DNA of 64,000 bases from Promicromonospora thailandica (GTDB taxonomy: Bacteria > Actinomycetota > Actinomycetes > Actinomycetales > Cellulomonadaceae), in NCBI RefSeq assembly GCF_024171955.1, contig NZ_JAMTCS010000006.1, forward strand, positions 62,001 through 126,000, read 5' to 3'. This document shows, one piece after another, positions 14,042-62,851 of the stretch (position 1 is its first letter; every line of letters starts with the position of its first letter). Position numbers and translations under genes: made by a program. Under the pieces are notes generated by a model that was not told the origin of the DNA, ran no database searches, and saw nothing but the letters and a program-made list of their open reading frames with translations.

Positions 14042-14109
14042 CCCCGCCGACCCAGTCATTGTGCCCACCCCAGCCCGTGAATCTGGGCACGATGGCTGGG
14101 TGGGCGGGG
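14042..14109 (-). terminator. Long imperfect hairpin downstream of the ROK gene
   Basis: The 26-nt arms 14042-14067 and 14084-14109 pair with three non-Watson-Crick positions, two of which can wobble on one strand. The loop is 16 nt. It lies 13 bases beyond the stop of the minus-strand ROK gene and just after the rplQ terminator, so the convergent pair has two separate hairpins. Confidence 0.65.
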
Positions 14110-14951: not shown

Positions 14952-15872
14952 GTGAACGAGCTCATCAGGGTGCGCCTCGACCTGGCCTACGACGGCACCC
15001 GCTTCGCGGGCTGGGCCCGCCAGCCGGACCTGCGCACCGTGCAGGGCACGCTGGAGGCCGGCCTGGCCCAGGTGCTGCGTAGCGAGCAGCGCGGTCTGCC
15101 CGCGCCTCGGCTGACCGTCGCGGGGCGCACCGACTCCGGCGTGCACGCACGGGGCCAGGTGGCGCACGTCGACGTCGACCCCGAGGGCTGGGCCGCGCTG
15201 CCCGGCCGGTCCGACCGCTCGCCCGGGGAGTCCCTCGTGACGCGGCTCGGTGGCGTGCTGCCCGGGGACCTCGTCGTGCGCCGGGCGGCGCCCGCGCCCG
15301 AGGGGTTCGACGCGCGGTTCTCCGCGCTGCGCCGGCGCTACACGTACCGCATCGCCGACGCGCCCGGGCTGCGCGACCCGCTGCGCCGCGACCACGTGCT
15401 GTGGACCCGCAAGGCGCTCGACGTCGCCGCGATGGACGCGGCGGTGCGCCCCCTGGTCGGGCTGCGGGACTTCGCGGCCTACTGCAAGCCGCGCCCGGGG
15501 GCGACGACCATCCGCGAGCTGCAGCGCATCGCCTGGGAACGCCCGGCCGACGGGCCCGACGCCGGGCTGGCGGTCGCGCACGTGGTGGCCGACGCGTTCT
15601 GCCACAACATGGTGCGGGCGCTGGTCGGTGCGTCGATCGCAGTAGGGGAGGGGCGGCGCCCCGCGGGCTGGCCCGCCGAGCTCCTCGCGAGCAGACGGCG
15701 GGACGCCGGGGTCTTCGTCGTGCCGCCCGAGGGGCTGTGCCTGGAGGAGATCACGTTCCCGCCCGACGCCGAGCTCGCCGCCCGGGCCGACGCCGTGCGG
15801 GCCAAGCGCATGGACGAGGAGGTCTGGGACGAGCCGCGCCGGCCCCGCCGAAGTAGAACTGCAGCGAGATAG
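14952..15872 (+). CDS. truA: tRNA pseudouridine(38-40) synthase TruA
   Basis: TruA modifies positions 38-40 in the tRNA anticodon arm. The catalytic aspartate is D61 in AGRTDSGVHA. LAYDGTRFAGWARQP at the N-terminus and FCHNMVRALVGA near residue 220 are also typical. The protein is 306 residues with a GTG start. The last eight residues (RSRTAAR after PRR) and the TAG stop are encoded inside the left arm of the 47-bp hairpin at 15844, so the natural C-terminus has probably been replaced by the repeat. Confidence 0.95.
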   Translation: MNELIRVRLDLAYDGTRFAGWARQPDLRTVQGTLEAGLAQVLRSEQRGLPAPRLTVAGRTDSGVHARGQVAHVDVDPEGWAALPGRSDRSPGESLVTRLGGVLPGDLVVRRAAPAPEGFDARFSALRRRYTYRIADAPGLRDPLRRDHVLWTRKALDVAAMDAAVRPLVGLRDFAAYCKPRPGATTIRELQRIAWERPADGPDAGLAVAHVVADAFCHNMVRALVGASIAVGEGRRPAGWPAELLASRRRDAGVFVVPPEGLCLEEITFPPDAELAARADAVRAKRMDEEVWDEPRRPRRSRTAAR

Positions 15873-15941
15873 AACTCTGGCGTACCCCCTGACCAGGGGG
15901 TACGCCAGAGTTCTATCTCGCTGCAGTTCTACTTCGGCGGG
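15844..15941 (+). repeat. 47-bp perfect hairpin with GAGATAGAAC-type units
   Basis: Positions 15844-15890 pair without mismatch with 15895-15941 around the loop GACC. Each arm holds two 16-bp units, CCGAAGTAGAACTGCA and GCGAGATAGAACTCTG, related to the 16-bp tandem unit behind guaB at 61087. It lies between convergent truA and the DUF5709 gene and covers the end of truA. It will act as a bidirectional terminator at least. The shared unit points to a dispersed repeat family. Confidence 0.9.
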
Positions 15942-59546: not shown

Positions 59547-61073
<1,527 letters not shown>

Positions 61074-61086
61074 TCCCCGCCCCTCC

Positions 61087-61223
61087 GCGAGATAGAACCG
61101 TGGCGAGATAGAACCGTGGCGAGATAGAACCGTGGCGAGATAGAACCGTGGCGAGATAGAACTGGGGCCGGGGCGCTGATCAGCGCCCCGGCCCCAGTTC
61201 TATCTCGCCACGGTTCTATCTCG
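61087..61223 (+). repeat. 16-bp tandem array ending in an 88-bp perfect palindrome
   Basis: GCGAGATAGAAC occurs at 61087, 61103, 61119, 61135 and 61151, a strict 16-bp period; the first four copies continue CGTG. Positions 61136-61179 pair without mismatch with 61180-61223 (44-bp arms, centre TGATCA), so the right half contains two inverted copies. The array lies between convergent guaB and the amine oxidase gene. It is related to the hairpin at 15844 by the core CGAGATAGAAC. Confidence 0.95.
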
Positions 61224-61237
61224 GCGGACCGCGCTGG

Positions 61238-62851
61238 TCAGTTCGCCATGACGCGGGCGTGCAGGGCCTGGACCGCGTAGCGGGCCGACCAGAACGCGCC
61301 GTGCTGCCAGGCGGACACCTCTGACATCCAGTCCCCGGCGAAGTAGACCTGCCCCACACCCTGCTGCAGCAGCCGGAACCCGGCCGACGAGGTGTCCGGG
61401 TAGGCCCACGCGCCCTCGATGTAGGGCACCTTGTGCCAGGCCACGGAGAAGGAGCTCTCCAGCTCGGTGCGGTACTTCTCGCCGTGGATCTTCACGCCCT
61501 GCGCCACCGCGCGCGCCTCGCGCTCCCGCGGGGCCAGGTCCGCGTACGTGCGGGCGTTCGCACCGGTGTTGTAGTACCCGACGACCAGGCCCCGGCGCTC
61601 CCCGTACCCGTAGGACGGGTACCAGACGTGAGCGAGGTCCATGTCCGTCTCGGTGATGCCGCCGTAGATCCGGTGGTCGTCCTCCCAGAACCGGGACCGG
61701 TACTGCAGCCCGATCTTGCCGGCGGGCGAGCCGACGGCGAACTCGCCCAGCGCCGTGTCGACCTCCGCACCCCAGTTGGTGTCCCACCGGCGCATGAGAC
61801 CGGCCGGCGCTGTGACGACGGCGAAGTCGGCGTCGAGCTGCCGGGGCCTGCCACCGCGCGGCGTGTACGTGACCCGGACCCCGCGGCTCGTGTTCTCGAC
61901 CGCCGTGACCGGTGAGCTCAGGTGCACGTTCTGCGCGCCGATGGCCCGCACCAGGTACCGGTAGGTGGTGTCCATGCCGCCCTTCGGCTGGAACATGAGC
62001 ATGGACTGCTCCCAGTTGATCTCGAAGGGGAAGTACTGCCCCACCTTCGAGGCGAGCACCTCCGAGACCGTGCCCGGACCGGGCAGCGGCGTGCCGTGCT
62101 CGTTCCACGCGGACGGGTAGACCGAGTAGCCGCGGTTGCTGCCGCCGGCGTAGGTGCCGTCCGACCGCAGCGACCCCCAGCTGCGCAGGAAGGACCGGAG
62201 GTTGTCCTTGTCCTGGTCGGTGAGGCGCTGGTCGAGCGCGCCCTGGTCGGCGGCCTGGTACAGCAGCTCCGACGTGTAGCCGAAGACGTCCGCCTTGGCC
62301 GTGCGGTAGCGCACCGGGTTGCCCGGGGTCGCGCCCGACCGCTCGTTGTAGAGGTAGGCGTCGGCGTTCGCGTTGGTGAACACCTCGTAGGGCACGCCCA
62401 GCTCCCGGAGGTAGTCCATGGTGACCATCCACTGCGCGATGCGGCCCGCCCCGGCGTTGAGGTACACGCCGTCGGCGAACCGCGCGGTCTGGGTGACTCC
62501 ATCGAGGTCCGTCTCCGAGTCCCCGCCTCGGATCGTCAGCGTGCGCCCGCCCACCCGGTGCCGGGCCTCGAGAACCGTCACGCGGTAGCCCGCCTTCTGC
62601 AGCTCGTAGGCGGTGGCGAGGCCCGCCGGGCCCGCGCCCACGACGACGACCTTCCTGGCCGAGCGGCCCGTCAGCGTGAAGTCGCCGGTGCGGGGCGGGA
62701 CCCACGACTCGGGCCGGGGCTGGGCGGACGCCGTGGGCGCGAGCCCGAGGGCGCCCATGGTGGCGAACAGGACGCCCGCGCTGGACCCCGCGCCGACGGC
62801 CTGCAGGAAGTTGCGACGGGTGACTCCGGAAGTGCTCTGCTCGATGACCAC
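61238..62851 (-). CDS. Secreted flavin monoamine / L-amino-acid oxidase
   Basis: A 537-residue FAD enzyme. Residues 1-43 are a twin-arginine signal (TRRNFLQAVGAGSS), so it is exported folded with its cofactor. The dinucleotide motif VVVVGAGPAGLATAYELQ is at about 68-85 with GGRT after it. C-terminal YFAGDWMSEVSAWQHGA binds the FAD tail, as in amine oxidases. The substrate is not determined. The start is GTG, with GAGAGG upstream. It is convergent with guaB and divided from it by the palindromic array. Confidence 0.9.
   Translation of the reverse strand: MVIEQSTSGVTRRNFLQAVGAGSSAGVLFATMGALGLAPTASAQPRPESWVPPRTGDFTLTGRSARKVVVVGAGPAGLATAYELQKAGYRVTVLEARHRVGGRTLTIRGGDSETDLDGVTQTARFADGVYLNAGAGRIAQWMVTMDYLRELGVPYEVFTNANADAYLYNERSGATPGNPVRYRTAKADVFGYTSELLYQAADQGALDQRLTDQDKDNLRSFLRSWGSLRSDGTYAGGSNRGYSVYPSAWNEHGTPLPGPGTVSEVLASKVGQYFPFEINWEQSMLMFQPKGGMDTTYRYLVRAIGAQNVHLSSPVTAVENTSRGVRVTYTPRGGRPRQLDADFAVVTAPAGLMRRWDTNWGAEVDTALGEFAVGSPAGKIGLQYRSRFWEDDHRIYGGITETDMDLAHVWYPSYGYGERRGLVVGYYNTGANARTYADLAPREREARAVAQGVKIHGEKYRTELESSFSVAWHKVPYIEGAWAYPDTSSAGFRLLQQGVGQVYFAGDWMSEVSAWQHGAFWSARYAVQALHARVMAN

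Follow-up and report, generated by a model that had tools for sequence, protein, structure and literature searches.

A genus-restricted family of palindromic 3'-end repeats built from a 16-bp module in Promicromonospora: candidate bidirectional terminators

The closest described systems are the REP and BIME elements, which the available excerpt of one study portrays as dispersed palindromic intergenic repeats lying mostly at gene 3' ends, in convergent or codirectional gaps and often less than 20 bp from the ORF (PMC3733652). Published REPs are, in the excerpted part of a second study, hairpins of 20-40 bp that carry an unpaired tag, the GTAG types having a RAYT transposase (PMC2817692), and the CGTC types seemingly do without a dedicated transposase, as far as the first excerpt goes (PMC3733652). 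The family described here likewise lies at gene 3' ends (85 elements in convergent and 35 in codirectional gaps out of 120, none divergent), but each of its arms repeats a 16-bp module that is not palindromic and has no internal hairpin, two modules, a core and two further modules already measuring 90 nt, and its genus, Promicromonospora, has no detectable Y1 transposase (0/13 genomes). We class it with the dispersed palindromic 3'-end repeats, not as a REP. DNA uptake sequence (DUS) words are mostly single and occur also within genes, and inverted DUS pairs occur behind genes. Dialects of the DUS have been published (PMC3630211, in excerpt). Like the DUS of Neisseriaceae and Pasteurellaceae, the present family has a short conserved word with species dialects; unlike them, it forms strict 16-bp arrays, with no isolated TAGAAC copy in 337 kb. 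With intrinsic bidirectional terminators it shares a strong GC-rich stem right past the stop codons, common to converging genes, yet its stems are at least 90 nt long and belong to one modular, dispersed family with dialects.

We analyzed a window of 64,000 nucleotides from Promicromonospora thailandica (genome G000), in which the original prediction had singled out a 16-bp tandem array behind guaB. The features of this locus, and of a second one behind truA, are as follows.

59559..61073, plus strand: guaB, IMP dehydrogenase; its stop lies 13 nt ahead of the element
61087..61224, no strand assigned: whole element in the gap between guaB and the amine oxidase gene, five modules, core and two inverted modules, 138 bp
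61087..61162, plus strand: left arm, one GCGAGATAGAAC module every 16 bp, five in all, with four CGTG spacers
61136..61223, no strand assigned: palindrome of 88 bp without mismatch or loop, each arm 44 nt
61163..61196, no strand assigned: 34-bp palindromic core, TGGGGCCGGGGCGCTGATCAGCGCCCCGGCCCCA
61197..61224, minus strand: right arm made up of two inverted modules; CTCGG, the terminus of the family, closes the outer module
61238..62851, minus strand: flavin amine oxidase gene, convergent; its stop lies 13 nt beyond the element
15848..15937, no strand assigned: second element, two plus two modules, flanked by truA and a DUF5709 gene; the TAG of its second module is the stop of the truA ORF

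The five copies at a strict 16-bp period that had been reported behind guaB are exact, with GCGAGATAGAAC starting at 61087, 61103, 61119, 61135 and 61151. The loopless 88-bp palindrome was likewise recovered to the base, its arms (61136-61179 and 61180-61223, 44 nt each) being 100% complementary, and a final unit, GTTCTATCTCGG, sets the end of the element at 61224. The longest perfect arm in this region was 44 compared to 10 in 300 mononucleotide shuffles, and the strand from 61074 to 61237 folds with an energy of -114.6 kcal/mol (z -11.8). Allowing up to one mismatch, CGAGATAGAAC occurs 9 times in the window, while 100 dinucleotide shuffles gave an average of 0.26 and a maximum of 2. Both elements had been placed between convergent genes, and the gene calls agree. 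Profile matches identify IMP dehydrogenase (TIGR01302, 5.3e-175, exceeding the cut-off), the flavin amine oxidase (PF01593, 2.7e-39), TruA (PF01416, 3e-29, above the cut-off; TIGR00071, 3e-40, at 138.3 bits against a cut-off of 142.85) and, facing truA, a DUF5709 protein. The same core had also been said to recur with 16-bp spacing in the truA hairpin. This hairpin is indeed a member of the family, but it carries the exact 11-mer just once per arm, the neighbor 16 bp outward being the variant CCGAAGTAGAAC. Rfam models had no match anywhere in the window.

Genome-wide, the exact 11-mer CGAGATAGAAC is present in 118 copies (reversed control, 0), and the inner inverted pattern TAGAACN{16,44}GTTCTA matches 74 times per strand, several times per element (control, 0). 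The prediction of a dispersed family at convergent gene ends is thus supported, and a search of the genome and its relatives found many further copies. The G000 sites studied, like those of the related genome G048, are a subset of each genome's elements drawn from the first 100 places listed; in G000 they comprise 41 arrays in 38 loci, two of the arrays being halves of one split element. The common plan consists of CCGARRTAGAAC, then repeated NNNN-GCGARRTAGAAC, a core, and a mirrored arm ending in GTTCTAYYTCGG. Across G000 and related loci, C is the first letter of the outermost module in 227/262 arms, inner modules start with G in 541/550 cases, the step between modules is 16 in 536 cases (the runner-up, 17, has 2), and eight words account for 480 of the 536 spacers. 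The near-invariant module word is CGARRTAG, in which the RR pair over 784 modules was AG in 265, GG in 207, GA in 201 and AA in 2. Counting every dialect, 337 kb of G000 contain 28 units, of which 25 are parts of arrays.

Two peculiar sites were observed in G000. At L151 2559-3910 (contig C1, ~167058-168409), an element is split by ~1.25 kb containing an ORF and a hairpin of its own. The ORF is weakly AbiEi-like, below the Pfam cut-offs; we rejected it as an autonomous element, given this weak similarity and the lack of a second between-arm copy in the examined loci. Close to two contig ends (C12 and C14), the elements at L187 and L188 have a common core, GCCGGCTCTTGCTAGC, and a common right flank, perhaps a repeat that broke the assembly.

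The family is restricted to its genus, as judged by sequence matches. Modules fitting GCGARRTAGN7GCGARRTAG were found in 10/13 Promicromonospora genomes (in G516 as a single match) and in 0/208 genomes from 24 other genera of the family Cellulomonadaceae. The TAGAAC form was found in 8/11 sampled genomes of the genus, in 0/110 other genomes sampled from the family and in 0/395 other genomes of the phylum. Among the matches listed, the pattern occurs in 93 named stretches, 92 of them from Promicromonospora; the sole one from outside the genus (L082, a Shimia MAG) has no second unit or palindrome and was discarded as chance. A weak, 81% match to an element was also seen at G111:C1:677478-677566, although G111 has no pattern module.

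Species differ in how they spell the module. In G048 it reads TAGTCA, less often TAGACA or TAGTCG (165 pattern matches; control, 0), and the arrays of the two genomes have the step, the CCG ends and the main spacer words in common; CGTG and CCTG lead among the G048 spacers, with GTTG and CTTG in addition. For 8 of 37 compared G048 arrays, a G000 element occupies the same site, each genome using its own dialect, where a rough extrapolation predicts between ~0.4 (counting every 3'-end gap) and 1.9 (counting convergent gaps alone) shared sites if the two were independent; the loci compared had been chosen for bearing elements, which biases this count toward shared sites. One-armed arrays made up 14/40 in G048, 2/41 in G000 (the split element) and 11/97 at named loci. 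Four of the 40 G048 arrays lie in apparently divergent gaps, three of them one-armed (L253, L255, L256 and L266), which could possibly reflect a gene-calling error or another role.

The position of the elements relative to genes was determined for two-armed, non-redundant, N-free elements from G000 and its relatives, of which there were 131, or 120 after excluding 11 at locus edges; the genes came from a codon-usage caller trained on the window rather than from annotation, and this caller may err in G048. None of the 120 elements was intragenic. Among 205 genes whose 3' ends face an element, 146 terminate 1-28 nt before it, 47 have as their stop codon the TAG in register of the first (42) or second (5) module, 4 stop inside the element at other codons, and 8 end farther off. 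By comparison, TAG stops in the background numbered 9/67 in the window and 36/287 in a G111 stretch. An explicit case is position 1692 of C6, where the repeat supplies the final codons together with their TAG; G111 has its own codons and a TGA there. Because 16 is a multiple of three plus one, TAG falls in successive frames along the modules, and 70 of 99 three-module arms have it in all three frames. These observations matter for annotation, since 47/205 genes adjacent to an element end at a TAG that belongs to the repeat.

We examined arm pairing in eight 90-nt elements, picked for equal length. In these, 98.0% of cells were paired and 18 of 43 pairs were altered on both sides; none of 500 shuffles equaled the observed pairing, number of two-sided changes or covariation score, and the number of further pair types was attained by 7/500. 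When G-U was counted, all 41 equal-armed elements together had 226/268 spacer cells and 1248/1296 module cells paired. Innermost spacers were identical from arm to arm in 57 of 114 elements (14.4 in shuffles, maximum 27) and outermost spacers in 54 (16.3 in shuffles, maximum 29); about half of the spacer pairs are mismatched, often because the arms contain unequal module numbers, and arms of unequal length are common. The purine arm comes first in 131/131 elements, and their median folding energy is -99.3 kcal/mol. Spacers and cores thus vary between sites, and the arms remain complementary. The stem is preserved while its sequence changes, a pattern that selection and template-switch copying fit equally.

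Orthologous sites revealed how quickly these sequences turn over. For the guaB gap, we recovered the two flanks in 12/13 genomes. The element is present in G000 and as a decayed copy in G516, and 9 other species have long hairpins of different sequence: GTGTCAGACCCACAGG-type in G097 and G105, GTGGGCGTGATCGTTGCGCC-type in G077, GAGCTTGTCGAGACC-type or variants thereof in G064, G031, G087 and G006, a palindrome containing the related word GCGAGGTAGTC in G117, and an unrelated hairpin in G048. In G111 the gap measures 3 nt in total. Three of the replacement hairpin words recur in named loci with up to one mismatch (14, 11 and 4 matches). The five element sites in the 337 kb of G000 were also followed elsewhere: in G111, three have a different hairpin and two have no hairpin; in G097, four have a different hairpin; and in G031, one still has this element, one a remnant of a single module and one a different hairpin, one (truA) has no hairpin and one lacks synteny. 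The truA site is without a hairpin in G111, G097 and G031. When G000 was compared with named species at gaps with both flanks, an element was found at the same gap in 18/20 cases, a proportion biased by the choice of loci bearing elements, and the modules, spacers and core of shared gaps usually differed. The remaining two comparisons gave one unrelated palindrome and one pair too far apart to compare. Position and hairpin outlast sequence at these sites. Long hairpins (arms of at least 18) occupy 12/51 convergent, 13/175 codirectional and 0/50 divergent gaps in the 337 kb of G000, and 0/51, 2/54 and 1/48 divergent gaps carry them in three other genome stretches.

Judging from sequence, we consider these repeats to be genus-specific, dispersed, module-built, bidirectional 3'-end hairpins, probably serving as terminators or transcript-end protectors. 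Position, pairing, covariation, polarity and replacement by other hairpins all back this assignment. Each element begins a few bases from a stop codon or itself provides the stop, and a transcript entering from either side could form a single, very long stem, which would end or protect the transcripts of genes running into it. The arms may lengthen and shorten through 16-bp tandem duplication, as the four identical 16-mers of the guaB left arm and the frequency of unequal arms suggest, and mismatches between arms could be excluded by selection on the stem, by template-switch copying from arm to arm, or by both. Of the three mechanisms originally offered (a terminator growing by tandem duplication, a protein-binding array and a non-autonomous mobile repeat), the first is the best-fitting candidate. 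Several observations speak against termination. A simple scan of 60800-61500 found 0 U-tract terminator sites, which also distinguishes this locus from intrinsic terminators, and the TAGTCA dialect has even fewer T past the core. The sites are dispensable, as in G111 behind guaB and in three genomes behind truA, and G048 has its one-armed arrays and apparently divergent gaps. Template-switch repair alone, without selection, could be the source of the covariation. Neither the invariance of the 12-mer nor the sharing of spacer words nor the existence of dialects follows from the stem alone; a constraint, perhaps a sequence-specific factor, may keep CGARRTAG, the step of 16 bp and the limited set of spacers in place. 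Restricted words together with a genome-wide dialect suggest either such a reader factor or strong concerted evolution.

The remaining explanations are taken in descending order of probability. A selfish or domesticated gene-end element is a doubtful but tangible option: a sequence-specific factor would read the module, build and repair both arms and co-evolve with the module, producing the switch from TAGAAC to TAGTCA at conserved sites, and TAG with a 16-bp step would close all three frames within three modules, making arrival harmless. It is unlikely that the repeats are non-autonomous palindromes moved by something other than a Y1 transposase, with gene ends as the least harmful place of insertion. 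Dispersal over unrelated gene-end gaps, discrete CCG...CGG ends with their outer C, gaps that are occupied or empty depending on species, and a TAG in each module, so that an insertion still closes the reading frame, would all suit movement. Against it, five sites compared with three genomes have no target duplication, the sites shared by G048 and G000 suggest that sites are old, and a mover was not found: Y1 transposase, the usual enzyme of such repeats (RAYT), and reverse transcriptase are each in 0/13 genus genomes, and IS110, in 4/13, does not follow module number, one of the four being G517, module-less by the pattern. The mobile repeat of the original prediction is possible, but its usual enzyme was found in none of these genomes.

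Also distinctly unlikely is a binding array, in which a DNA-binding protein would recognize the module once per 1.5 turns of the helix and the hairpin would arise incidentally. The near-invariant 12-mer and step, spacer words that are mostly the same in the other dialect, and the one-armed G048 arrays, some between divergent genes, are what such an array would display, but it has no need for mirrored spacers and cores, for a strict tail-to-tail order in all 131 elements, or for placement at gene ends. Very unlikely, in our estimate, is a purely mutational product, namely ordinary terminators that slippage and template switching at quasi-palindromes have converted to perfect arrays, the module sequence playing no role. 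Unit number, spacers and cores do turn over quickly at orthologous sites with the arms still matching, and unrelated perfect hairpins occupy the same gaps; however, local mutation does not explain why one 12-mer and one set of spacer words reappear in different species and at dozens of sites unrelated to each other. REP or BIME elements moved by a RAYT transposase are extremely improbable despite a location, beside 3' ends in convergent and codirectional gaps, that resembles that of REPs in the excerpted study (PMC3733652), since Y1_Tnp (PF01797) detects 5/14 control genomes and none of the 13 from the genus, and the modules do not themselves form small hairpins bearing an unpaired GTAG or CGTC tag. 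A DNA uptake sequence whose inverted pairs act as terminators would share the species dialects but can hardly be reconciled with array-bound units (25/28), the lack of isolated TAGAAC units and 0/120 intragenic elements.

Palindromic repeats at gene ends are already known, and it is the strict 16-bp module, the spacer vocabulary, the mirrored arms and the dialects that set this family apart. Among the matches listed for the 11-mer, its complement and a 10-mer, the titles were unrelated, and among those listed for Promicromonospora palindromes, terminators or repeats we noticed no report of it, which weakly suggests that the repeat is absent from print. With such a family, in a genus without detectable RAYT, one can test how terminator-like repeats scattered over a genome originate, keep their perfection and change in step with one another.

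Several of the long hairpins of G000 (arms of at least 18) are members of other repeated families. One such family, of TTCGAGACCGAGGTTGCTTCGCTTTGAG type, was seen at gene 3' ends at six places in the 337 kb of G000:

G000 contig C6, near 140690, 152098, 194403, 214829, 218434 and 228655 (loci L336-L340): TTCGAGACCGAGGTTGCTTCGCTTTGAG-type hairpins

A differently spelled form of this family is present at some orthologous G097 gaps. In addition, two related hairpins around CATTGTGCCCA / GATTGTGCCCA lie behind genes at window position 14052 and at ~262616 of contig C6, and these perhaps represent a further small family.
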